From an uncultured Pseudomonadota bacterium (GTDB lineage: Bacteria; Desulfobacterota; Desulfobacteria; Desulfobacterales; Desulfobacteraceae), in the NCBI GenBank assembly GCA_937880875.1, contig CALGRI010000106.1, forward strand, positions 1-36,706: 36,706 nucleotides of DNA, written 5' to 3'. The notes under the pieces were generated by a model. That model searched no databases and was not told the origin of the DNA. It saw only the letters and a list, made by a program, of their open reading frames with translations. Made by a program: the position numbers and the translations under genes. Below, one piece after another: positions 5,800 to 24,604 of the stretch; positions within the stretch are counted from its first letter, which is position 1, and every line of letters begins with the position of its first letter.

Positions 5800-5978
5800 A
5801 GCAGTTGAATAGTAACTTAAAGTTCAAAAATGTCAAATTTTGAATCTTTATTTTTAAAATATGGTTGACATGAAAGACGGAATAAGAGAAAAAGAACTTT
5901 GTTTAAAAAATTTTAGTTAATATACGATAAGGTGATGAAAAGACTTTAAATTTGGATATACAGGGGGAAAACAATAGC

Positions 5979-7298
5979 ATGGGAGATACAGCTATTAAAA
6001 TTGGAGGCGCAAGGAAGAGCGTTTTTAAAGATAAGGTAATGAAGCTTTTGCCTGATGGCGGGAATTTGAATGCATGCCTGACATGCGGTGCTTGTGCATC
6101 AGGTTGTCCTGCAACGGGTCTTGAAGGAATGGATCCAAGAAAGTTCCTGAGAATGGCAGCACTTGGAATGGATGAAGAAGTGTTGAACTCAAACTGGGTA
6201 TGGATGTGTACCATGTGTATGCGGTGTATTTATGTCTGTCCCATGGAAATTAATATTCCCCAGCTTGTATTCAATGCAAGAGCGCAATGGCCAAGAGATG
6301 AAAGACCAAAAGGTATCAGGGGTTCATGCGACATGGCATTAAAGAACGACACCTGTTCTGCCATGGGTGCCAATGAAGAAGATTTTCAATTTGTTGTGGA
6401 AGATGTTCTTGAAGAATACCAGGAAGCACAGCCTGAATTTGAAGAGATGACGGCAGATGTAAACCGGGAAGGGGCCTATTATTTTTTGAACCAGAACTCC
6501 AGAGAGCCTGTAACAGAACCTGATGAAATGGTTCCGCTTTGGAAGATCCTGCACCTTGCAGGGGCAGACTGGACCTATGGCACAAAAGGCTGGGCAGCGG
6601 AAAATTATTGCATGTTTCTGGCTGAAAATGAAACCTGGGAAAAAATTATCCGGACAAAGGTAAAAGCCGTGGAGGATCTGGGCTGTAAAGTCTGGCTCAA
6701 CACGGAGTGAGGGCACGAACTTTTCGCAGTCCTGGCAGGACTGAAAAAATTCAAGATCCCTTACAATTTTGAAATTAAAAGTATTATTCAACTTTATGCT
6801 CAATGGATCAGGGAAGGCAAACTCAAACCGTCTTCTGACTGGAACAAAGACAGGAAAATCAAGTTCACACTTCAGGATCCCTGTCAGCTGGTGAGGAAAA
6901 CGCTTGGTGACCCGGTTGCCGAAGAAATGAGATATGTTGTCAAGAAAGTTGTGGGTGAAGAAAATTTAATTGACATGACACCCAATAAATCAAATAATTT
7001 TTGCTGCGGCGGCGGTGGCGGATTCCTCCAGTCTGGTTTTCAGGAGCAAAGAAGGGCTTATGGACAGACAAAGGCCAACCAGATCCTTGCAACAAAAGCC
7101 ACCTATTGCATCACCCCATGCCATAATTGTCATGCCCAGGTGCATGATATGGCCGAGGTCAATGACCATGCATGGGAAACAGTTCATCTGTGGACTCTGT
7201 TAAATCTTTCCCTGGGTATACTGGGCCCTAATGAAAGAACCTATCTTGGTGATGATTTAAAAGAAGTGGATGTGTTTCACCCGGAATCTGCCATGTAA
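5979..7298 (+). CDS. HdrD/GlpC/TmcB-like (Fe-S)-binding protein with an in-frame UGA, probable selenoprotein (Sec at codon 244)
   Basis: ORFs 5952..6710 and 6891..7298 are in the same frame. The 60 codons from 6711 to 6890 are open and coding (GHELFAVLAGLKKFKIPYNFEIKSIIQLYAQWIREGKLKPSSDWNKDRKIKFTLQDPCQL). Two N-terminal 4Fe-4S motifs (CLTCGACASGCP, CTMCMRCIYVCP) and a C-terminal CCG-type Cys-rich region (DPCQL...NNFCCGGGGGF...CITPCHNC). ATG at 5979 has a GGGGG ribosome-binding site upstream; the track's 5952 start is TTG. Confidence 0.85.
6717..6752 (+). promoter_or_regulatory. Candidate bacterial SECIS stem-loop just 3' of the in-frame UGA
   Basis: cagtcc(6727-6732)-tggca-ggactg(6738-6743) gives a perfect 6-bp upper stem with a 5-nt loop carrying G in its first two nucleotides. 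It extends through a small internal loop to tttt/aaaa and gaa/ttc pairing. The stem starts 16 nt after the TGA. Confidence 0.65.
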
Positions 7299-7329
7299 TT
7301 TGCATATCTGAAATTTTAAGATTAAGTCA

Positions 7330-7369
7330 GCCTTATACAGCAAGTAATTTGCTGTATAAGGCTTTTTTT
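7330..7369 (+). terminator. Rho-independent terminator after the Fe-S protein gene
   Basis: Perfect 14-bp inverted repeat gccttatacagcaa-gtaat-ttgctgtataaggc followed by a T run. Confidence 0.9.
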
Positions 7370-8252: not shown

Positions 8253-9118
8253 TGAAAAGGAAAAAGAAAAACACTGGTCTGGGAAGGGGAATTTCAGCAC
8301 TGATTCCGGATTTTGACATGTCGGAGAGCAGTCCTGATTTTTTCATGTGTTCCATTGAAGATATAAAACCTAACAGGTATCAGCCTAGAACCGTTTTCAG
8401 CCAGGAAGAAATGGACCTGCTTAAGGAATCCATTGCACAGCAGGGTGTTCTGCAACCTTTGCTGGTAAGGCATCTTGATGATTCCTATGAGTTGATAGCA
8501 GGGGAGAGAAGACTTCGCGCTGCCAGGGAAGTCAATTTGACCCATGTGCCTGTGTTTGTAAAAAATCTGACGGATGAACAGGTCCTGGAAGTTTCCATTA
8601 TTGAGAATATTCAAAGAGAAAATCTAAATGTTCTTGAAGAGGCAGAGGCTTATTACCGATTGATTAATGAGTTTAATTATACCCAGGAAAAAGTTGCAAA
8701 AAAAATTGGCAAGAACCGTTCTACAATCGCAAATCTGATTCGTCTCAGAAGCCTTCCCCAGGTGATTAAAGACAGCCTGATTGCAGAAATTATATCCATG
8801 GGACATGCAAGAGCCCTTTTAGGGGCCGGCTCCCAGGAAAACCAGATTTATCTTTTTGAAATAGTCCTTGAAAAAGAGTTGTCTGTGAGACAGACGGAAA
8901 AACTTGTCAACAACGCCAAAAAAGAACCCCAGAAATTTCAGAAAAAAATATCAGCAGCTGAAAAACAATTTCTTGATGAAACCTGTTCAATCCTTTCCAA
9001 TCATATTCAATCCATTGTCAAAATTAAAAAGATCGGGGATAAAGGCAAGATTGAAATCAATTTTAAATCCAAAATAGAGTTCACACGACTGGTCGATCTT
9101 TTGACTAATCTTTCATGA
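8249..9118 (+). CDS. parB: ParB/Spo0J-family partition protein
   Basis: KKNTGLGRGISALIPD N-terminus; ELIAGERRLRAAREV; ENIQRENLNVLEEAEAYYRL; HTH region with GKNRSTIANLIRLRSLP. ATGA overlap with parA. Confidence 0.95.
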   Translation: MMKRKKKNTGLGRGISALIPDFDMSESSPDFFMCSIEDIKPNRYQPRTVFSQEEMDLLKESIAQQGVLQPLLVRHLDDSYELIAGERRLRAAREVNLTHVPVFVKNLTDEQVLEVSIIENIQRENLNVLEEAEAYYRLINEFNYTQEKVAKKIGKNRSTIANLIRLRSLPQVIKDSLIAEIISMGHARALLGAGSQENQIYLFEIVLEKELSVRQTEKLVNNAKKEPQKFQKKISAAEKQFLDETCSILSNHIQSIVKIKKIGDKGKIEINFKSKIEFTRLVDLLTNLS

Positions 9119-10827
9119 AAATAGTTGTTGCAAAAACCGCCGGGTTCTGTATGGGAGTCCGCCGTGCTGTGGATATGGTGCTGGATGCATCTAACCTGTC
9201 CCAGGAATCCATTTATACCTATGGGCCTTTGATCCATAATCCTCAGGTACTTGCGATGCTTGAAGAAAAAAATATTTTCAGGATTGATAAAATCCCTGAA
9301 AAGGGGAGTGGTATTATCTTAATTCGGGCGCACGGGGTTCCGCCGGAAGATGAAAAAGCATTAAAACATGCCGGTTTTACAGTGATAAATGCGACTTGCC
9401 CCAGGGTAGTAAGAGTCCAGGTGATTATTGATGAATATGCCCAGAAAGGGTATTCAACTATTATTATTGGGGATGAGAAACATCCGGAAGTCGTTGGTCT
9501 TTTAGGATATGCAAAGGGAAAAGGGCATGCCATCACATCCATGGAACAGCTTTGTGCTTTACCTAAGTTTGAAGCTGCTGTTGTAGTTGCTCAAACAACC
9601 CAGAATACTGCATTTTACGATGAAATAAAGACATGGTGTAAAACCAATGCATCCCATTATAAAATATTTGATACTATCTGCGGCTCCACTGAAAAACGCC
9701 AGGCAGAAATCCGTAAACTTGCCGGGGAAAATGATGCAGTGATAGTTGTTGGAGGAAGACAGAGCGGAAATACAAAAAGACTGGCACAGATTGCATCCGG
9801 AACAGGCAAATTTGTTACCCATATTGAGGATGTTTCCCAGATTGATTATGGCAAATTGTCATCGGCCAGGTCCGTGGCGATCACAGCCGGAGCGTCAACA
9901 CCAAACTGGATCATTAATGATGCATACAGGAAAATAGAAAGCAATCTTCAACATCAAAATGATGTGAAAGCTTTTTTATTTTTCATTCGTGATTTTTTGC
10001 TGAAAACCAATATAATGGCTGCAGCAGGTGCAGGGTTCCTGACCTACGCATGTTCCATGCTTCAAGGGATTACCCGGGATTTTCACCATGCTTTGATTGC
10101 CACGCTGTATGTCCTTTCAATGCAGATACTAAACAATTTATTTACGATTAAATCTGATAAATATAATCATCCCCAAAGAGCGCTTTTTTACAGGAAAAAT
10201 TGGTTTTATCTGTGTGTTCTTGCCATTTTATCAGCTTCAACAGGTCTTTACCTGAGCTTTACCACGGGAATGTTCTCTTTTTTTGTTCTGCTTGTCATGA
10301 GCTTTTTGGGGTTATCATACAATTTTAAAATTTTCTCTTTCATGTCAAAAAAGGGAAAACTTGCCAGAATAAAAGATATCCCCGGATCAAAAACCATTCT
10401 GATTACCATTGCCTGGGGAACTGTGACCTGCCTTTTGCCGGCAATGACAAATCAAAGTGATTTGATTTCAGTTGCAACGGTGTGCCTGTTTGCCATGGGG
10501 CTCGTATTTGCGAGAACTGCCTTTTTTGATATCATGGCCATTCAGGGTGATAGAATCACAGGGAAGGAAACCCTTCCAACCCTTTTAGGGGAAAAGCAAA
10601 GTTTTAAAATCATACAATATGTGTTGCTTGTTGATACGGGTATTATTATTTTATCTATTTTCACAGATGTGTTGGCAATAAAGGCTTTCTTTTTCGCTTT
10701 CATACCCTTGATGATGCTTTTATTAATAAGGTTTTTTAAAAACAATAGTCTTATATCTGGTGTGCACAGGGAATTTGTTGTTGAATTTTCATTTATTGCC
10801 ACGGGATTGCTGGCAGCTGTCATTTAA
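9115..10827 (+). CDS. ispH: IspH (4-hydroxy-3-methylbut-2-enyl diphosphate reductase) fused to a C-terminal UbiA-like polytopic membrane domain
   Basis: N-terminal ~280 aa matches the IspH pattern (KTAGFCMGVRRAVD, RAHGVPP, NATCPRV, TICGSTEKRQ, ITAGASTPNWII). From about residue 285 it becomes multi-TM with UbiA-like 'NNLFTIKSDKYNHP' and 'FFDIMAIQGDRITGKETLPTLLG'. ATGA overlap with parB. Confidence 0.9.
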   Translation: MKIVVAKTAGFCMGVRRAVDMVLDASNLSQESIYTYGPLIHNPQVLAMLEEKNIFRIDKIPEKGSGIILIRAHGVPPEDEKALKHAGFTVINATCPRVVRVQVIIDEYAQKGYSTIIIGDEKHPEVVGLLGYAKGKGHAITSMEQLCALPKFEAAVVVAQTTQNTAFYDEIKTWCKTNASHYKIFDTICGSTEKRQAEIRKLAGENDAVIVVGGRQSGNTKRLAQIASGTGKFVTHIEDVSQIDYGKLSSARSVAITAGASTPNWIINDAYRKIESNLQHQNDVKAFLFFIRDFLLKTNIMAAAGAGFLTYACSMLQGITRDFHHALIATLYVLSMQILNNLFTIKSDKYNHPQRALFYRKNWFYLCVLAILSASTGLYLSFTTGMFSFFVLLVMSFLGLSYNFKIFSFMSKKGKLARIKDIPGSKTILITIAWGTVTCLLPAMTNQSDLISVATVCLFAMGLVFARTAFFDIMAIQGDRITGKETLPTLLGEKQSFKIIQYVLLVDTGIIILSIFTDVLAIKAFFFAFIPLMMLLLIRFFKNNSLISGVHREFVVEFSFIATGLLAAVI

Positions 10828-13432: not shown

Positions 13433-16400
13433 ATGATTAGAAGAATACTGAATTCAAGACTGCCTTTAATGGTTTATAACCCGGTAAAGGTGTTTGATGT
13501 AAAGTATTTCAAAGAAATCTTCAACGCTGGCGCTCTTCCCGTATTTGATACGGAATTTTTAACCCATGACGACATACTTCAAAACGCCTTTTTGCTTTCC
13601 AAAGAAAAATTCAGTTTTGGTATCAGACTTTCAACCCATGATAATGAACTGATCCAAAAGATCAAACATCAGCAGATGATCAACCTTGATCTTTTAATTT
13701 TTCCTTTTGGCAAAGATGATACACCTGCAGATTTTACAAATATTGCAGAGACTAAAATAGTTTTGGAAATCAAAGATATTAATATTAACGACAAGATAAA
13801 AGCGGTTTCACCCCATGCCTTGATCTTGAAAGGGAATGAAGCAGGTGGCAAGGTTTCAAGATACTCATCTTTTGTTTTGATGCAATGGTATTTGAAAAAC
13901 AGCCAATTGCCGATATTTATCCACGGAGGCGTTGGAAAGTATACTGCTGCCGGCATGTTTGCAGCAGGTGTTTCAGGCCTTGTTATGGACAGTCAATTGC
14001 TCATGACAGATGAAGCCCCCGTATCAGATAATTTTAAAAAACTTTTGGCCATGGTGGATGAGAGTGATTCCACTGAAATTACATATAATGGCAGCGATAT
14101 TTACCGGGTGTTTGCAAAACTGGGGACTAAAATTGTTAAAGAACTCAAACTTGCTGCAGTTGAATCTGGTGATGATCTCCAGGGACAACAAAAGGTTTAT
14201 GAGTCCATCACCACCCATATGACATCTTTTGACAAGGAAGATGTTCAGTTTATCCAGTCTCTTTTCTATCTTGGCCAAGATGGGGTATTTGCAAAGGATT
14301 TTGTAAAAGACTCAACAAGTCTTAAAGAAATTATTTCAGGCTTTTTCAAAATTATTGGTGAGAATTTAAATTTTATTGATGCATTTGATCCAATAAAGCC
14401 CGGTTCCCCCTTTGCCAAGGACCAGGGAACAAAATTCCCATTGATCCAGGGACCCATGGCCAATATTTCTGATAATGCTGATTTTGCAAATAAGGTTCTT
14501 GAGCAGGGGGCGCTGCCGTTTTTTGCAGTGGGAAGTCTTCCAGAGCAGCTGGCAGACAATATGCTAAAGGATGGTGCCAAAAAAGTGAATGTTTTTGGTG
14601 CAGGATTAGTGGGCATTGAAGCCTTTAACCCCATTGTAAAAAAACATCTGGACATGGTAAAAAAATATAAGGTTCCCTATGCGCTTTTTGCAGGCGGAAA
14701 TCCTTCCCAGGCAGCAGAACTTGAAAAAGCAGGAACCAAAACCTATCTTCATACCCCCTCGGTTTCCATGATGGAAAATGCCCTGAAAAGCGGATGCAAA
14801 CGGTTTATCTTTGAAGGCGGGGAAGCCGGCGGCCATGTGGGCACCCTTTCTTCCATGGTGTTATGGGAAGATGCCATTGCCACTTTAATCAATAAAAATT
14901 ATGACCTGTCTGATGTATACCTGGTATTTGCCGGTGGCATCTCCACTTGTTTTGCATCATTTTTTATTTCCGGGTTGACATCTTTTCTTGCAGCTAAAGG
15001 GGCGAAAATTGGTATCCAGGTGGGAACAGCCTATCTTTTTACGGATGAAATTGTTGAAACCAAATGTATCAAGTCTCAATATCGCGACATCATTATCCAG
15101 GAAAATGAAACCATGGTGATCGGCAAAAGCTTAGGATTGGCATCCAGGACGGCACCCACAAGGTTTGCCAGGATTATGCTTGAAGCTGAAGCTGAGATGA
15201 TTAAAAACAAGGATAGCCTGGAAAAAAGAAAGCGTGTCTTTGAAAAGAAAAATATCGGTTCTTTGCTCATAGGCGCTAAAGGGTTTTTGCCGGATTTTAA
15301 AAATCCAGGGCCTGAGAACTATACCTGGTTTGAAGATGAAGAACATAAGGAAAAGGGCAATTTTCTTGTGGGGGACAGTCTGGCCTTTTTTAATGGATCT
15401 GTTACCATAAAGGAAATTCACAACAAATACTTTGAAGCCAAATCAACGCTTTTCAAAAACATTAACTTTCTTGAGATATTTTCAAGCCCGAAAAATAAAA
15501 TCAATGATGAGATTGCAGTGGTGGGTGTCGGTTGCACCCTTCCGGACGCCGATGATCCTGACAGTCTGTGGGAAAATATTTTAAATAAAAAATATTCCAT
15601 CAGTCAGATGCCAGAATCAAGATTTGATCGCGACCTGTATTATGACCCTGACAAAAGTGCGGAAGACAAGACCTACACCATCCTTGCAGGACATGTAGAC
15701 CATTTTGAGTTTGACAAGGAACGATTCGGATATGCTGATGGTAAAGAAAAAAGACTTTCCCGCAGCCAGAAAATGGTGTTGCAGACCGCATATAAGGCCG
15801 TTGAAAATGCAGGACTTATGGGAGATGACAACCGTCTGATCTGTGAAGATCCTGCAAGAACTGCTGTTATTATTGCCACATGCCTTTCCAATGAGCTGGG
15901 AAATGACGTTCAGCTCAAGTACTGGTACCCGCAAATTGTTTCCATGATGGAAAAAACAGATGAATATCAAAGCTTAAGTGATGATGAAAAAGAGACGGTC
16001 AAACAGGTTTTAATGGAGGGCATGGAAGGGGAGAACAAAGGATATGATCCTGTCCATGGTATTTTACTGAACATTGAAGCCTCAAGGATTGCCCGCCACC
16101 TGGGTGTCCGGGGTACAAATTATGTTGTGGATGCAGCCTGCGCATCCTCGGTGACAGCTCTTGATGCAGCAGCAGGAGAGCTTTTGTCCGGCGATTATGA
16201 CCAGGTTATTGTGGGTGGAGTCAATACCCATCTGGCACCGGAATCCTTTATCGGGTTTGCAAAAATGGGAACCTTGTCCCAGAAGGGATCATACCCCTTT
16301 GACCAGCGGGCTGACGGGTTTATCCTGGGTGAGGGCTCCGTTATTTTTGTGTTAAAAAGAATGAAAGATGCCATAAGAGATAAAAATAATATTCTGGGTG

Positions 16401-19400
16401 TCATCAATTCCATTGGTTCAAGCTCTGACGGCAGAGGAAAAGCCATTGCTGCACCAAACCCGACGGGGCAGGTATTAAGTGTCCAGCGGTGTTTTGAAAA
16501 TATCCGGAACAGCATAAAACCTGAAGATATCGGATTTATTGAAGCCCATGGTACATCCACCACCATTGGTGATCAGGCAGAGCTTGAGACCTTGAATTCC
16601 ATCTACAAGAATGCCAGTGCCGGTATCTCTTCCATAAAATCCCAGGTCGGCCATCTTTTAGGATGTGCAGGATCAGCAGGGCTTTTAAAGGCATTATTGG
16701 CTATTAATAAAGGAAAACTTCCGCCCAATGGGCAATTTGAAGCCCTTTCAAAAAATCATGATTTAAAAGGATCTTCCCTGTTTATTATAAAAGACACACA
16801 GGAATGGAAATCTGAAAATAATACATCCAGAAAAGCCGCTGTCTCTTCTTATGGATTTGGCGGTATTAACTATCATATGGTTGTTGAGCAGATGACCCAA
16901 AACTATCAATTGATTCCACGGGATATTTTCACTGATCCAACCTATGATTTTAATGATGACCGAATCGTGGTTGCAGGTCTTGGAGTTTTTCTTCCCGGTG
17001 CAAAAAACACAGAAGAGTTCTGGGAGAAACTTGAATCAGGGGAAAAACAATTGTCCGACATCCCTATTGAACATTTTGATAATGCTGCCTATGCAAATCT
17101 TGATAAAAATTCTACTTACAGGCTTCCCAAAGTAAAGGCAGGAGTTGTCAGGGATGTAAAGTTCAACAATTTGAAATACAGAATGCCCCCCATGATGGTC
17201 AAATCCATTGAAAGAGGGCAGATCTTTGGCCTTGAAGCCGCCAGCGAGGCCCTTGAAAGTTCAGGCCTGCTGGGTCGCTTAAGCGCTGCCAACAAGGTTG
17301 GCGTTATTTTAGGCACCATTGCCGGAGAGCGTCAGAGCAAAAATATTGTCAGGGTTAGAAAACAATTTATTGGTAATATCATTAAAAATTGTCAGAATGT
17401 TGATGTTGAAAAGCGCAACAAGGTTTCAGAGGCGCTTGTGGAATCGATCCGGAATACGATTCCAGAGAATAATGAAGATACCACACCAGGGCTTTTGTCC
17501 AACATTATCTCCGGCAGGATTGCCAATTATTTTGGATTGAACGGTGCCAATTACGTGATTGACGCATCCTGTGCCTCATCCTTTATCGCCATGCGAAATG
17601 CAGCCCGGAACCTGAAACACAAAGATCTTGATTTTGTCCTGGCAGGCGGAGTTGACTGCAACCTTTATCCGGCAGTTCTCATGGCCTTTAAACGCCTGGG
17701 ACTTTTGTCAGAGGGGGACTGCAACTTTTACGATTCAAGGGCTGACGGCTATGTCATGGGAGAAGGCGCAGCCATCCATATTATGACCACCTATAAAAAA
17801 GCCCGTGAGTATAATATGGAGATTTTAGGAGAGATCAATGATTGTGCTGTGCGCTCAAGCGTGCCAGATCATCTTCTTGCCCCTTCGGAACAAACCTTTG
17901 TATCCACCATAAACGAAACATATTATAAATCCGGAATCAGAAAGCAGGATATCAACCATATTGACGTGTTTGCATTTTCCAATATTTTTGGTGATATCGT
18001 GGAAAAGCAGGTGATTGAAAATTGTTTTGACCATGAAATGCATTGCGGAAACATAAAATCTCAGTTCGGGTATTTCAAAGCTGCCAACCCGGCTGTAGCC
18101 ATGGCAAAGCTTATGCTCATGAACAGCAAAGGAAAAATTCTGCCGGATTTTAATTATAATTCTGAACATTCTATTTTAAATGATGGTAAAATTTTAAAAC
18201 CTGCTAGCTTGATGCAGGTAAAGCCCAAAGGCCAGCCCTTTAGATTTGCAGCCAATGTCAATGGCATTGGCGGTAATCATTGCCATATGATCATGAGTAC
18301 AATACCTGCGAGGCTTGAAAGAAAAGATAAAATTGTACACCTAGAATTTAAGGCAGCAGCAGAAGATGATATCGTATTAATAGATCACGCGTACTCTGCT
18401 GATGACATGGGTAAAAAATTGAGAATGGTTGCGCTTCTTTCCGGCCAGGGTGCTCAGAGAAGCCGCATGATGAAGGAGCTTTTTGAAAAAGATGCCCACA
18501 TCAGAAAAGTGATGGAAAAAGGCGAACAGATTTTTGTTGAACAAAGGGGGTATTCCCTTTTAGATATGATGTTTGGTACGGATGATGCCATTAACTCAAC
18601 ACAGAATACCCAACCGGCTGTCTTTCTTTCTTCTGCTGCCATTTACAGTCGATTGTCTCAGGAAGGATTTTCTCCGGATTATTTTATCGGCCACAGTGTG
18701 GGTGAATACACAGCCCTTTTTTGCAGCAAAATGCTTTCCTTTGCCGATACCATGCGTCTGGTCATTAAACGTTCAGACCTTATGTATGAAGCCACATTAA
18801 AGGTTCCGGGCAAAATCATGGTGGTATTTAAAAATGAAAAAGAGACAGAGCATCTCATAAGAAAATCTTTTATTGCTAACATTTATATTACCAATAAAAA
18901 CAGTGAAAAACAGACGGCGGTTTCCGGTCAGGCTGAGGATATTGAAAAATTCTGCATCTTTTTGACCCAGCAGGAGATTTTTTATAAAAAACTGAATCTT
19001 ACCGGGGCCTTTCATACACCTTTTCTCAAAGAAGCTTCAGTTGATTTAAGAGCATATCTGGACACCCTTACCTTTAATGACACCCGGTTTGGAAGAATTA
19101 TTTCCAATACCCTTGCAAAACCCTACCCTGAAATACGACAAGATGTCAAAGATCTTCTGGCAAGGCAGATTATTTCTCCGGTTGAATTTATAAAATCCAT
19201 TGAAAATGTATATAAATCCGGCCGTACCCATTTTATTGAAATCGGTCCGTCAAGGCTGCTGGTGAATCTCTTGAAAAACATCAATATCGGAGAATATGGC
19301 ACAGCCGTATCCGTGGATGCAAAGGAAGGAGAGGTGAAATCCTTTGAAGCCTGCAGAAAATACCTTCAGGATTGCAACAGCATTTTTGAGACAAAACCTC

Positions 19401-22400
19401 TCGCCCCAATTGCAAGAAAATTTATTCCCAAACCTGAAGAGGAGTTACCAAAAATTAATATGTCTGAAAATTTTGAATCCTTTAAGCAAAATAACCAGAA
19501 GCTGGTTGATCAAATCCTTTACAAGGAATATCAGCACCAGAAACGTCAATCAGCCATTGATGCCATTGAAAGGTATGATTTTAATACCCAGAGAATAGTG
19601 ATCTCAGGTGTTTCTGTAGGGCTTCCGGGCAAAGACAGACGTGTCTTTGCAGCAGATAATTTTGATGCGATTTTAAATGGTGAAAACTTTATCGAATCCC
19701 TTACGCCTGAAGACCAGGATAAAATAATAGATAAAAATATTACCAAGTTGTTCAAACAGCCCGATGGAAACGCCAGGTTTGTACAGATCACCAAAGCAGA
19801 AGACGTTATCCATCTGGCAGGACAGCTCGGTTATTTTGATCTCATGGATGAATACGGGATTAAAGAACAATACGATATTACCATGGCCATCAGTATTGCC
19901 GCCGGTATTGAAGCGTTAAAGGATGCGAATATCCCCCTTGTCATGCAGTATAAAAAGATGAAGGGCGGTAAAATCAAGGTTCCCGACGGGTTTGCCCTTC
20001 CTGAAGAGATGCAGGAGGATACGGGAGTGATTATTTCATGTTTATGGCCAAGCCAGGAGACCCTGATTGAGGAACTTGAAAAATATTATTATGAAAAGTT
20101 TTTTCTCAAACCCTATGAAGCCTTTGAAAATATCTACTACTATCTCATGGAAAAAGTCACAGACATTGAGATAAAAGAACAGATCACTGAATGGTTTTTC
20201 AAGGCCAAGTCAGGAAAGAAAAAAGAGTTTAAAGAGTTTAAGTTTGACCGGTATTTTGCAGGTAAAATCACACCTTTAGGGTCTGCCTATCTTGCCCAGA
20301 TTATTAAAGCAAAAGGACCCAACACCCTTGTCAGTGCAGCCTGTGCATCAACAGCCCTTGCCATTGGTATTGCCGAAGACTGGATCAGGGTCGGAAGATG
20401 CAAAAGAGTTATTGTCATCGGCGGTGAAAATGCCACATCTCAAAATCAGAACCAGTGGATCGGGTCAGGTTTTCTTTCCCTGGGTGCGGCAACCATTAAA
20501 AAAAGAGTTTCAGAAGGTGCAAAACCCTTTGACGAAGATCGAAACGGCACCATCCTGGGGGCTGGAGCCGTGGGGCTTGTTGTTGAGGCTGAATCCTGTG
20601 TCAGGGAAAGGGGAATGGAAGGACAATGTGAAATCCTTGGAACACACATGGCCAACTCTGCGTTTCATACGTTCAGCATCGATGTGAAACATCTGGCAAA
20701 GGAAATGAATAAATTCATCAATAAAGTTGAAGCACGAACAGGTCTTAAGAAAGAAGACTATGCTGACAAACTTTTGTTTATGTCCCACGAGACCTATACC
20801 CCTGCAAGGGGAGGAAGTGCCGATGCGGAAGTGACAGCGCTTCAAACGGCATTTGCCGATCACCTGGATTCCATATGTATTTCAAATACAAAGGGATTTA
20901 CCGGCCATACATTAGGGGCTGCCATAGAAGATGTGGTCATGGTGAAAGCGCTCCAGAAAAGAAAAGCCCCTCCCATTGCAAATCTTAAAAAAATACCCGA
21001 GCATTTTAAGAATCTCAATTTTTCCGGTCAGGAGAAAATTAATTCTGAGTATGGACTCCACCTGGCTGCAGGGTTCGGCTCTCATCTGGCTTTTCTATTT
21101 GTCAAACGAATCGAGGAAAACCTGGTTGAAGGCAATGTGCGATACCAGAACTGGATAAAGAAAATTACGGGTTCCCAAAATCCTGAACTTAAGATTATTG
21201 ATAATACCCTTTGTGCCATGGCCGGCGGGGAAGCCTTGCAACAGGCTATAAAAGAAACAGGGAAAAGTGCTGACCCTGTAACGATAGCCATGGCTTTAAA
21301 AGCATCTATGCAGGCCCTCCCGGCAGCCCCTGCACCTGTTGAAACTATGAAGGAAATGGCTGGTGCGAATGACGACAAAGCGGTTAAACAGAAAGCCGGG
21401 GAAGCCTCTGCAAAAGTTTCTGCGGTGTCCGTTGCGCCAGGGCAGGGTGAGGATGTGTCAGCCATGGTTAAAGAGGTGATTGCTGCCCAGACCGGATACA
21501 CGGCTGACATGCTGGAACCTGACCTGGATTTAGAAGCAGATCTTGGAGTGGATACAGTAAAACAGGTTGAGATTTTTGCCAAATTAGCCTCCCATTTTGG
21601 CTTTTCAGTGCCAGACGATCTGAAACTTCGGGATCTGAACACCATTGCCAAACTTGGGGAGTATATTCAATCCCGGGCAGACAGGCCTGTTGAGACAGCA
21701 AACCAGGCAGAGACACAAGAATCAGCACCTGGGGCCCTGGTTGTACCAGCCCAGGGTGAGGATGTGGCAGCCATGGTTAAAGAGGTGATTGCCGTCCAGA
21801 CGGGATACACGGCTGACATGCTGGAAGATGACCTGGATTTAGAAGCAGATCTTGGAGTGGATACAGTAAAACAGGTTGAGATTTTTGCCAAATTAGCCTC
21901 TCATTTTGGCTTTTCAGTGCCAGACGATCTGAAACTTCGGGATCTGAATACCATTGCCAGATTGTCCGACTATATTACTATCCAGGCAAAAGCTGTGCAA
22001 ACGCTTCAAACAGAATCAACCACTCCCGTGGAAAGCGATGAAAAAAATCAGACAACTATAGTCATACCTTCAAATGAAGATGATGAATTTCCTGATCCTG
22101 CATCGCCCATCAAGCGGTTGATTGTCAGAGCGGTGGAATCTAAGCTCCCTGAGCTTTCCAAAAAGGATTTCACCCGTGACCTTAAGGTTAAAGGCAAAAA
22201 AATCATCATCTCCCTTGACAATCATGGGTTTGCCAAAGAGGTTATTAAAAAAATAAAGCAGAAAAAGGGGGAAGTCATTACCATTGGCAGCAAAGGAGCT
22301 GATTTCAAGTTTGACTTAACCGATGTCAAAGCCACGGAAAAAAGGTTGGAGGAATTTAAAAAAGTCTATCCCGAGGTAAATGGATTTATCCATCTGGCAC

Positions 22401-24604
22401 CCCTTGATTTCTATTTTGATAAGAAAAACCAGAAAGCGGATTCAGACGATGCCCTTAACACGACGATCAAATCTTTTTTTGTCATGATCAAATCTCTTTT
22501 TGAAAACCTTGATCAAAAGGAAACTCTTATTGGAACCCTTACATTTGATTCTGTTGTATTCCCTTATATGGAAAACTGCGGTGATATCCATCCCATGTTT
22601 GCAGGACTTGCAGGGCTTATGAAAACTATGAACAAAGAGCTGCCAGATACCCAGGTCAAGGTGGTGGACTTTTCATATAAACAACCCAAAAAAAATATCG
22701 ATCAGATTACAGACCTTTTCTTAAATGAGCTGTTGTCTGATGATACAAGGGTAGAGGTGGGATACAAGGATAAAAAGCGGTATGTCCTTTCAATGAAACC
22801 CTCCATTGCAGACAAAACACAAAAGGTCATATCAGACAATGATACCTTGCTTGTGACAGGGGGGGCTGGCGGTATTACCTATGAAATCATTAAAAAAGTG
22901 GTTGAAAAGTATAAGACCAACCTGATTATCCTTGATATCAATGATATTTACAGCACTGATCCAAAATATCTGGATAAAAAATCCACTGACCCAGAGCTCA
23001 TGGAAATGCTTAAAGAGGATATGCCAGGAGTAAAACCTATTGAAATCAAACGGGCTCTTGATCGCCTGACGAGGGTCAGGCAGGCGCTTGAAAATATTGA
23101 GTACCTGAAATCTCTGGGTGCCAGTGTTGAATACAATTGTGTGGATGTAACTAATGCAAAAGCCGTAAAGGCGGCTTGCGATAAGTATGACAGGATTGAT
23201 GGAATTTTCCATGCAGCAGGCGTGGAAATGAGCCAGTTTATCCCCAAAAAGGAACTCTGGTCTTTTGAACTGGTGGTGGATGTCAAAGTCAAAGGTATGC
23301 AAAATCTATTACAGGCCTTTAAGGACAGGGAGTATAAATACTTTTTCACTTTTTCCTCGGTTACGGCTCGTTTTGGAAACCAAGGCCAGGTGGATTATAC
23401 TGCAGCCAATGATTTCCTCGGGAAAATGCTATTCAGACAGAAACAGATTCATCCTGAAAGAACCTATAAAGTCTATGCATGGACAGCATGGGGCGGTGTT
23501 GGCATGGCCACCCATCCAACAGTGAAGGCAGTGCTTGAACAAAGAGGCATACAATTCCTTCCAATGGAACAGGGGGTCAAGTTCTTTATGGCAGATCTCC
23601 TGGATAAGACTGAATCTGAAATGGTATTTTCCGGCCTTGATTATTCCTTTGACAAGGACGGCCTTCTGGGAGACCCTGGGGATGCACAGTTTCCTTTTCT
23701 GGATATCCCCGTGGAGAAAACCCCAACAGGGATAACCTATTCAAGAGTGCTGGATGTTGAAAGGGATGTCTTCCTCCATGATCATACCATGGAAGATGTA
23801 CCGCTTTTCCTTGGTGCCACAGGCATTGAAACCATGGCTGAGGTCGCCAGATCCCTGTCTAAAGATAAAGAGCATTTTGTTGAATTGACGGATTTTCAGA
23901 TTCCCTACGGGATCAAACTGTTAAAGAAACGGCCCAAGGAGCTTCTGATTTCAGGAAATTATGAAGGAGAAGATCTATTTGACTGCAGGATAACTTCTGT
24001 GTTTAAAAATCCCAAAGGCCTTGTCATGGGTGATCCAAAGCTTCACTATGAAGGAAAATACAGGTTTGCTCAAAAGCCATTAAAAGCGAAAAAAATTAAA
24101 CTTCCGGCATTTAATCCCGTATCCTGGGAAGGTGATCTTGAACCCTTGGTTTATAACCCCAAACGATTGTTCATGTTTGGCCTTTTTGGCACCATCACGG
24201 ATATTAACTCCTTTGATGGTAAAACATTGGTCACAACTATGGAAGATAAAAGTACAAAAGAGTTTTTCAAAGGGGTGAAAGATCCCAACTTTGTGGCAGC
24301 CCCCATCCTGGTTGATGCCATGTTCCAAACGGGTGGGCTTCTTGAGTTTTTTACCACCTCAAGGACAGTCCTGCCTTATAAAATAAAGTCATTGAAATTT
24401 TACAGGGATGTTGAAAAAAACAGGGAATATTTTTGTATCACCCAGAAGATGGCCTCAGGCGAGGAAACCAATACCTATGACCTGAAACTGGTTGATAAAC
24501 AAGGAAATGTCTTTATTGAGGTGGATAATTTTGAAATGGTAAAGCTCAATCAGCTTGACCCTGAAGACAGGATAATTGACCGGGTTGAGTTTAGTTTTTC
24601 ATGA
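13433..24604 (+). CDS. Giant iterative PUFA-synthase/type I PKS-like megasynthase (NPD*-NPD-KS1-KS2*-AT-KS3-ACP-ACP-KR-DH)
   Basis: 3723 aa. NPD/PfaD-like ER domains (second has FEGGEAGGHVG); KS1 DAACASS/EAHGTSTTIGD/GHLLGCAG; KS2 DASCASS without the His motifs; AT GHSVGEY...GAFHTPFL; KS3 SAACAST/SHETYTPARGG/GFTGHTLGAA; two ACP-like LGVDTVKQVEIF segments; KR TGGAGGI...SSVTARFGNQGQVDYTAAN; DH-like FLHDHTMEDVPLFLG...LVDAMFQTGG. Confidence 0.9.
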   Translation: MIRRILNSRLPLMVYNPVKVFDVKYFKEIFNAGALPVFDTEFLTHDDILQNAFLLSKEKFSFGIRLSTHDNELIQKIKHQQMINLDLLIFPFGKDDTPADFTNIAETKIVLEIKDININDKIKAVSPHALILKGNEAGGKVSRYSSFVLMQWYLKNSQLPIFIHGGVGKYTAAGMFAAGVSGLVMDSQLLMTDEAPVSDNFKKLLAMVDESDSTEITYNGSDIYRVFAKLGTKIVKELKLAAVESGDDLQGQQKVYESITTHMTSFDKEDVQFIQSLFYLGQDGVFAKDFVKDSTSLKEIISGFFKIIGENLNFIDAFDPIKPGSPFAKDQGTKFPLIQGPMANISDNADFANKVLEQGALPFFAVGSLPEQLADNMLKDGAKKVNVFGAGLVGIEAFNPIVKKHLDMVKKYKVPYALFAGGNPSQAAELEKAGTKTYLHTPSVSMMENALKSGCKRFIFEGGEAGGHVGTLSSMVLWEDAIATLINKNYDLSDVYLVFAGGISTCFASFFISGLTSFLAAKGAKIGIQVGTAYLFTDEIVETKCIKSQYRDIIIQENETMVIGKSLGLASRTAPTRFARIMLEAEAEMIKNKDSLEKRKRVFEKKNIGSLLIGAKGFLPDFKNPGPENYTWFEDEEHKEKGNFLVGDSLAFFNGSVTIKEIHNKYFEAKSTLFKNINFLEIFSSPKNKINDEIAVVGVGCTLPDADDPDSLWENILNKKYSISQMPESRFDRDLYYDPDKSAEDKTYTILAGHVDHFEFDKERFGYADGKEKRLSRSQKMVLQTAYKAVENAGLMGDDNRLICEDPARTAVIIATCLSNELGNDVQLKYWYPQIVSMMEKTDEYQSLSDDEKETVKQVLMEGMEGENKGYDPVHGILLNIEASRIARHLGVRGTNYVVDAACASSVTALDAAAGELLSGDYDQVIVGGVNTHLAPESFIGFAKMGTLSQKGSYPFDQRADGFILGEGSVIFVLKRMKDAIRDKNNILGVINSIGSSSDGRGKAIAAPNPTGQVLSVQRCFENIRNSIKPEDIGFIEAHGTSTTIGDQAELETLNSIYKNASAGISSIKSQVGHLLGCAGSAGLLKALLAINKGKLPPNGQFEALSKNHDLKGSSLFIIKDTQEWKSENNTSRKAAVSSYGFGGINYHMVVEQMTQNYQLIPRDIFTDPTYDFNDDRIVVAGLGVFLPGAKNTEEFWEKLESGEKQLSDIPIEHFDNAAYANLDKNSTYRLPKVKAGVVRDVKFNNLKYRMPPMMVKSIERGQIFGLEAASEALESSGLLGRLSAANKVGVILGTIAGERQSKNIVRVRKQFIGNIIKNCQNVDVEKRNKVSEALVESIRNTIPENNEDTTPGLLSNIISGRIANYFGLNGANYVIDASCASSFIAMRNAARNLKHKDLDFVLAGGVDCNLYPAVLMAFKRLGLLSEGDCNFYDSRADGYVMGEGAAIHIMTTYKKAREYNMEILGEINDCAVRSSVPDHLLAPSEQTFVSTINETYYKSGIRKQDINHIDVFAFSNIFGDIVEKQVIENCFDHEMHCGNIKSQFGYFKAANPAVAMAKLMLMNSKGKILPDFNYNSEHSILNDGKILKPASLMQVKPKGQPFRFAANVNGIGGNHCHMIMSTIPARLERKDKIVHLEFKAAAEDDIVLIDHAYSADDMGKKLRMVALLSGQGAQRSRMMKELFEKDAHIRKVMEKGEQIFVEQRGYSLLDMMFGTDDAINSTQNTQPAVFLSSAAIYSRLSQEGFSPDYFIGHSVGEYTALFCSKMLSFADTMRLVIKRSDLMYEATLKVPGKIMVVFKNEKETEHLIRKSFIANIYITNKNSEKQTAVSGQAEDIEKFCIFLTQQEIFYKKLNLTGAFHTPFLKEASVDLRAYLDTLTFNDTRFGRIISNTLAKPYPEIRQDVKDLLARQIISPVEFIKSIENVYKSGRTHFIEIGPSRLLVNLLKNINIGEYGTAVSVDAKEGEVKSFEACRKYLQDCNSIFETKPLAPIARKFIPKPEEELPKINMSENFESFKQNNQKLVDQILYKEYQHQKRQSAIDAIERYDFNTQRIVISGVSVGLPGKDRRVFAADNFDAILNGENFIESLTPEDQDKIIDKNITKLFKQPDGNARFVQITKAEDVIHLAGQLGYFDLMDEYGIKEQYDITMAISIAAGIEALKDANIPLVMQYKKMKGGKIKVPDGFALPEEMQEDTGVIISCLWPSQETLIEELEKYYYEKFFLKPYEAFENIYYYLMEKVTDIEIKEQITEWFFKAKSGKKKEFKEFKFDRYFAGKITPLGSAYLAQIIKAKGPNTLVSAACASTALAIGIAEDWIRVGRCKRVIVIGGENATSQNQNQWIGSGFLSLGAATIKKRVSEGAKPFDEDRNGTILGAGAVGLVVEAESCVRERGMEGQCEILGTHMANSAFHTFSIDVKHLAKEMNKFINKVEARTGLKKEDYADKLLFMSHETYTPARGGSADAEVTALQTAFADHLDSICISNTKGFTGHTLGAAIEDVVMVKALQKRKAPPIANLKKIPEHFKNLNFSGQEKINSEYGLHLAAGFGSHLAFLFVKRIEENLVEGNVRYQNWIKKITGSQNPELKIIDNTLCAMAGGEALQQAIKETGKSADPVTIAMALKASMQALPAAPAPVETMKEMAGANDDKAVKQKAGEASAKVSAVSVAPGQGEDVSAMVKEVIAAQTGYTADMLEPDLDLEADLGVDTVKQVEIFAKLASHFGFSVPDDLKLRDLNTIAKLGEYIQSRADRPVETANQAETQESAPGALVVPAQGEDVAAMVKEVIAVQTGYTADMLEDDLDLEADLGVDTVKQVEIFAKLASHFGFSVPDDLKLRDLNTIARLSDYITIQAKAVQTLQTESTTPVESDEKNQTTIVIPSNEDDEFPDPASPIKRLIVRAVESKLPELSKKDFTRDLKVKGKKIIISLDNHGFAKEVIKKIKQKKGEVITIGSKGADFKFDLTDVKATEKRLEEFKKVYPEVNGFIHLAPLDFYFDKKNQKADSDDALNTTIKSFFVMIKSLFENLDQKETLIGTLTFDSVVFPYMENCGDIHPMFAGLAGLMKTMNKELPDTQVKVVDFSYKQPKKNIDQITDLFLNELLSDDTRVEVGYKDKKRYVLSMKPSIADKTQKVISDNDTLLVTGGAGGITYEIIKKVVEKYKTNLIILDINDIYSTDPKYLDKKSTDPELMEMLKEDMPGVKPIEIKRALDRLTRVRQALENIEYLKSLGASVEYNCVDVTNAKAVKAACDKYDRIDGIFHAAGVEMSQFIPKKELWSFELVVDVKVKGMQNLLQAFKDREYKYFFTFSSVTARFGNQGQVDYTAANDFLGKMLFRQKQIHPERTYKVYAWTAWGGVGMATHPTVKAVLEQRGIQFLPMEQGVKFFMADLLDKTESEMVFSGLDYSFDKDGLLGDPGDAQFPFLDIPVEKTPTGITYSRVLDVERDVFLHDHTMEDVPLFLGATGIETMAEVARSLSKDKEHFVELTDFQIPYGIKLLKKRPKELLISGNYEGEDLFDCRITSVFKNPKGLVMGDPKLHYEGKYRFAQKPLKAKKIKLPAFNPVSWEGDLEPLVYNPKRLFMFGLFGTITDINSFDGKTLVTTMEDKSTKEFFKGVKDPNFVAAPILVDAMFQTGGLLEFFTTSRTVLPYKIKSLKFYRDVEKNREYFCITQKMASGEETNTYDLKLVDKQGNVFIEVDNFEMVKLNQLDPEDRIIDRVEFSFS
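21437..21959 (+). repeat. Tandem near-identical ACP-encoding repeats (about 214 bp, period 309 bp)
   Basis: 21437-21650 versus 21746-21959; about 10 mismatches by manual comparison, with an identical run of roughly 70 bp across the carrier-site motif. Confidence 0.9.

Follow-up and report, generated by a model that had tools for sequence, protein, structure and literature searches.

The window (the whole stretch of 36,706 nucleotides that was analysed) comes from an assembly of 3.63 Mb in 528 contigs. On its forward strand, a mechanical search for open reading frames returned two ORFs, at bases 5952–6710 and 6891–7298, separated at a TGA codon at bases 6708–6710. Apart from this TGA, the frame is open from base 5952 to a TAA at 7296–7298. 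Reading through from the ATG at 5979 gives one protein of 439 aa, in which the UGA is codon 244, and the coding sequence extends to base 7295. An earlier reading of the sequence alone, made with no database searches (the sequence-only reading), had recognized that the TGA splits a single gene, and this was confirmed. It had also described the frame as open for a further 60 codons. The frame does stay open past the UGA, but the true stop is 195 codons away, and 60 codons reach no further than the next GTG (base 6891). The ATG at 5979 is the likely start codon; the ORF extents of most orthologs match it, giving 439 aa with U at 244. A GGGGG run in a purine-rich stretch (bases 5963–5967, 11 nt before the ATG) may be a ribosome-binding site. 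Using read-through, ortholog ORF extents, Pfam matches to Fer4_8 and CCG, HdrC and HdrB profiles and dN/dS, bases 5979–7298 (+) were annotated as a single selenoprotein gene for an HdrC-HdrB fusion of the HdrD type with selenocysteine (Sec) at residue 244.

The gene lies between an hrpA-type helicase gene on the opposite strand, on its 5′ side, and parA, parB and a lytB-ubiA fusion on its 3′ side. A terminator-like stem-loop of 16 pairs followed by a T run is found at bases 7329–7363 (+), and the gene is therefore probably monocistronic in the window. The lytB-ubiA gene (bases 9115–10827, +), whose 570-aa product joins LytB (IspH) domains to those of a UbiA prenyltransferase, adjoins parAB throughout the genus. 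Further along, bases 13433–24604 (+) encode a polyketide/PUFA-synthase-like megasynthase of 3723 aa, in which three ketosynthase stretches, an acyltransferase, carrier domains, a KR and a dehydratase were recognized.

Codon 244 and selection beyond the UGA

A strong relative was found in 242 of the 292 genomes of the order, and the best relatives all have an internal TGA. When the codon at the Sec244 column was recorded in 104 homologous loci (a count that includes five loci entered twice, with the picture unchanged), it was TGA in 77, TGC in 25 and TGT in two, and no other codon was seen. The column is occupied by Sec or Cys only, Cys being the residue that the sequence-only reading had expected in related proteins. 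The TGA is kept at the same codon in these 77 loci, at identities as low as about 40%, and a sequencing error is excluded because dozens of independent assemblies share it. In the UGH motif encoded by bases 6705–6716 (Glu243-Sec244-Gly245-His246, +), E243, C/U244 and H246 are invariant among 27 homologs. Purifying selection is as strong past the UGA as before it, with dN/dS near 0.04: in comparisons between close relatives, limited to those with unsaturated dS, dN/dS was 0.036–0.079 after the UGA and 0.022–0.059 before it.

These results bear on two explanations in which the UGA would be a real stop. In the first, translation really ends at the TGA, or the codon is a pseudogene lesion (a recent nonsense mutation or a sequencing error), and the halves are separate or dead. 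The split in the mechanical ORF list agrees with this, as does the fact that the hairpin described below has no significance by itself, but the TGA in 77 loci, the strong purifying selection past it and the finding that Cys codons are the sole alternative in the column all oppose it, and its probability is close to nil. In the second, the two halves are polypeptides that assemble, much as B and C of HdrABC are separate chains. The UGA, however, falls inside the HdrB-like part and not at the C/B boundary, a start at GTG 6891 would lose 60 conserved residues, and the Cys homologs are single open frames, among them a paralog (G000:C479, locus L037) that comes from the same genome as the window and is 59% identical; we regard such a pair of chains as exceedingly improbable. 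On codon conservation together with dN/dS, both the stop or pseudogene and the split-gene explanations were rejected. The reading we prefer, with a probability of about 95%, is that the gene encodes a selenoprotein of the known Fe-S oxidoreductase (GlpC)-like family. Judging from the sequence comparisons, Sec would be incorporated at codon 244 in vivo.

The Sec or Cys label changes at least seven times on the tree, counting starred branches alone, compared with 16.7 changes for shuffled labels. Rooting of this tree with distant paralogs was unsuccessful, owing to long branches, and the Sec/Cys switches are accordingly given without direction. A tandem pair of copies of the gene was observed in Desulfamplus records (L128, L129) and in G035:C7, and Desulfospira joergensenii (L118) also has an ortholog.

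The stem-loop downstream of the UGA and the selenocysteine machinery

The sequence-only reading had drawn attention to a hairpin (cagtcc-tggca-ggactg) with the loop G of bacterial SECIS elements and further pairing in the lower stem. A SECIS-like stem-loop is present at bases 6727–6743 (+), with a 7-bp stem and a GGC triloop (caguccU-GGC-Aggacug), 16 nt separating the UGA from the stem. Taken alone it is unremarkable. Folding of the single sequence gave z = -1.1, which is inadequate as proof of a SECIS, and a search of Rfam found no matching SECIS model or hit at the stem-loop; the pairing of the window's native hairpin is matched in 1.8% of synonymous recodings. The hairpin is convincing only by comparison among homologs.

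Of 74 distinct Sec sequences, 72 form at least seven of the eight tested pairs. Averaged over all 74, 7.46 of the 8 pairs are formed, compared with 4.54 ± 0.13 (sd) when these proteins are recoded synonymously; the average for 19 Cys homologs was 3.74, with 3.41 expected. As the stem is kept in the Sec genes and is absent from the Cys homologs, the element tracks the UGA and not the protein sequence. The covariation score was 0.449, compared with 0.195 ± 0.023 in shuffles, none of the 500 shuffles was as high, and the signal was destroyed when the pairing partner was slid along. Two-sided changes were found at four pairs, most commonly at the loop-closing pair (U-A, G-C or A-U). All 74 Sec sequences have G as the first base of the loop, in agreement with the sequence-only reading, but the lower-stem pairing it proposed lacks conservation: one of the two outer pairs forms in 44/74 sequences and the other in 27/74.

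The genome was also examined for the genes needed to read UGA as Sec, a check that had been suggested earlier, and all were found: a tRNA-Sec (74.1 bits, cut-off 47), selA, selB and selD. The selD gene (L192, G000:C265:2444-3370) itself includes one in-frame TGA, and SelD of this genome is likely a selenoprotein. In the mechanism we propose, SelB with Sec-tRNA would read the UGA at 6708 as selenocysteine in a host that is a Desulfobacula-type sulfate reducer, and the downstream stem-loop would direct the insertion.

Protein identity and the position of Sec244

The protein matches Pfam families Fer4_8 (PF13183) and CCG (PF02754). Residues 29–101 match HdrC of methanogen heterodisulfide reductases (5odc_C, E 1e-12), and this HdrC-like domain (bases 6075–6242, +) includes two cubane 4Fe-4S motifs in conserved columns, C33, C36, C39 and C43, and C77, C80, C83 and C87. 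The C-terminal part matches HdrB. A structure predicted with good confidence (pLDDT 82.8, pTM 0.85) found its best solved-structure match in EtfD of Mycobacterium smegmatis, followed by HdrB. By sequence and predicted fold the protein is an HdrC-HdrB fusion, or HdrD-type protein, with both the HdrC-like dicluster domain and the HdrB-like CCG domain of the HdrBC/HdrD type, and the earlier description of one HdrD/GlpC-like protein of about 439 aa holds. Only one PF02754 match was found rather than two complete CCG cluster sites; it is C-terminal and complete, and the N-terminal site is without CCG and CxxC motifs. No conserved CCG-type Cys motif was found in the N-terminal half, a part covered without detailed alignment. 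The best NCBIfam profiles were HmcF, TmcB and DsrK, all below cut-off (149.9/750, 141.2/735 and 101.7/400 bits, respectively), and assignment to these equivalogs was rejected. Also rejected were LutB, far below its NCBIfam cut-off, and the strict GlpC of anaerobic glycerol-3-phosphate dehydrogenase (TIGR03379, 33.2 bits, cut-off 279.9).

Mycobacterial EtfD (PDB 9ojn) was used to locate residue 244. It shares the HdrC-HdrB-like soluble part but also has a membrane part, and its Cys503, 538, 581 and 584 hold a linear [3Fe-4S] cluster; its noncubane [4Fe-4S] cluster is held by His583 and Cys637, 672, 673, 709 and 712 (PMC13083937). In an HMMER alignment the C/U-G-H of the family falls on EtfD Cys581-Pro-His583, so that U244 corresponds to Cys581 and H246 to His583. 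The ligands of the noncubane cluster are all kept, with H246, the His of the C-x-H motif, and C302, C342, C343, C381 and C384 invariant or nearly so. The five Cys, aligned with EtfD Cys637/672/673/709/712, lie in the C-terminal CCG domain (bases 6867–7142, +; PF02754 match). By contrast, the equivalent of Cys581 is Sec and that of Cys584 is Glu. With the noncubane ligands kept, Glu at the Cys584 position and no CCG-type Cys motif found in the N-terminal half, Sec244 probably stands in an emptied N-terminal cluster site beside the noncubane cluster. In EtfD, the Cys at the position taken here by Sec is a ligand of another cluster nearby. The sequence-only reading had raised the idea of Sec as a ligand or redox residue at the catalytic Fe-S site, which is plausible. 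We consider it somewhat more likely than not that Sec acts at the noncubane cluster, and it may ligate or open it.

The product would be a soluble HdrC-HdrB fusion in which the two cubane clusters of the HdrC half exchange electrons with the noncubane [4Fe-4S] cluster of the CCG domain at the C-terminal end. This cluster is probably completed by His246, and Sec244 beside it would provide a selenol that tunes or opens it.

Known relatives, gene neighbourhood and possible partners

The protein is not of a new kind: the selenoprotein family that it joins was described some two decades ago. The entry in a 2026 review lists an 'Fe-S oxidoreductase-like protein' (PTHR43551) with a UGH motif and one Sec, credited to Kryukov and Gladyshev 2004 (PMC13188914). 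GlpC selenoproteins were reported by Zhang et al. 2006 in Syntrophobacter fumaroxidans (three), Desulfotalea psychrophila and Desulfovibrio vulgaris, with two Cys-to-Sec events inferred for the family; in S. fumaroxidans and D. psychrophila the operon is glpC-hdrA-frhD-frhG-frhA (PMC1794560). As the family was already catalogued, the gene is much less of a surprise. Compared by description, the protein agrees with this Fe-S oxidoreductase-like family (GlpC, COG0247, PTHR43551; reference protein WP_174406253.1) in its single Sec in the UGH motif (U244-G245-H246), its COG0247-type Fer4 and CCG architecture (judged by PF13183 and PF02754), its deltaproteobacterial hosts and its Sec/Cys exchange. 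It differs in its surroundings. The reported operon, which is not a defining trait, was not found at this locus, where the neighbours are hrpA and parAB and the gene is solitary; relatives have it with hdrA-mvhD-metV-metF. HdrD4 (hdrD4) of Desulfobacterium autotrophicum HRM2, a reported HdrD-type selenoprotein (PMC2702500), is also alike, by description only, in being soluble, in combining HdrC and HdrB domains, in containing Sec and in coming from the same bacterial group.

Neighbourhoods were compared in the 51 named relatives with enough flanking DNA. In 20 of these, hdrA, mvhD, metV and metF were found nearby on the same strand, frequently in the order hdrA-mvhD-[Sec HdrC-HdrB gene]-metV-metF. 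Three others had hdrA/mvhD only, two had metF only, 12 had parAB and 14 had none of these. The parAB context is made up almost entirely of Desulfobacula and close kin; in Desulfobacula the gene is alone, between hrpA and parAB, and not beside hdrA or metVF. Several of the relatives' clusters also have an in-frame UGA in hdrA (NDCxMU) and mvhD (CCDYU), at CxxU sites of the type catalogued for the HdrA and MvhD selenoprotein families (PMC13188914). Examples of the five-gene order recurring in Desulfobacterota are L140:2755-9139 and the relatives L135, L189 and L163. No description of this cluster was found in a literature search that covered few subscription papers. The hdrA-mvhD-metV-metF clusters of the window's genome are located elsewhere. 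One has an mvhD (L200, G000:C238:1405-1749) with an in-frame TGA at CCQYU, beside hdrA, metV and metF, and in the second, at C113, mvhD has Cys instead of the UGA.

The methylene-THF reductase complex that HdrCBA-MvhD forms with MetVF has been studied in acetogens (PMC9430772). The complexes of Sporomusa and Moorella share hdrA, mvhD, metV, metF and an HdrBC unit with the Desulfobacterota clusters; in the latter, by contrast, HdrB and HdrC are fused and contain Sec, and HdrA and MvhD may carry a UGA. The neighbours in relatives suggest that the protein may be part of an Hdr-type methylene-THF reductase arm. The likeliest partner would be the HdrA-MvhD flavin module and, via it, MetVF methylene-THF reductase or a comparable reaction. 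From gene order, this is a reasonable hypothesis for the family and an indirect one for the window's organism: the gene is not beside hdrA or metVF in its own genus, and the assignment of partners therefore rests on relatives. We put a partnership with HdrA-MvhD-MetVF in the window's organism at a little short of even odds. There is an even chance that Sec244 is present as proposed but that the protein serves an electron-transferring flavoprotein, a quinone-linked membrane module, a hydrogenase-linked Hdr (glpC-hdrA-frhD-frhG-frhA) or a DsrC-like disulfide. EtfD as best structural match, HmcF, TmcB and DsrK as top profiles (below cut-off), the solitary gene in Desulfobacula and the hydrogenase-type operon of other deltaproteobacteria (PMC1794560) favour one or other of these, whereas the many relatives with the gene on the same strand beside hdrA, mvhD and metVF do not.

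A more specific proposal joins the partnership with HdrA-MvhD-MetVF to a role for the selenium. Sulfate reducers would have a methylene-THF reductase complex that is flavin-based and rich in selenium (HdrA-Sec, MvhD-Sec, HdrCB-Sec, MetV and MetF), with the protein as its HdrBC arm, and Sec244, in the emptied site, would serve the noncubane cluster directly as an additional or exchangeable ligand. We consider this whole combination doubtful. To our knowledge, from a non-exhaustive search, no enzyme has been described with this chemistry.

Gene callers that ignore recoding would mis-split this gene, and so also the electron-transfer protein of sulfate reducers that it encodes. The family also offers a natural series of Sec-for-Cys exchanges next to a noncubane Fe-S cluster, with at least seven switches on the tree and a Cys paralog in the same genome, so that how selenium affects a cluster of this kind could be tested directly. 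For a family whose biological role is unclear, the recurrent hdrA-mvhD-[Sec protein]-metV-metF cluster provides a testable partner hypothesis.
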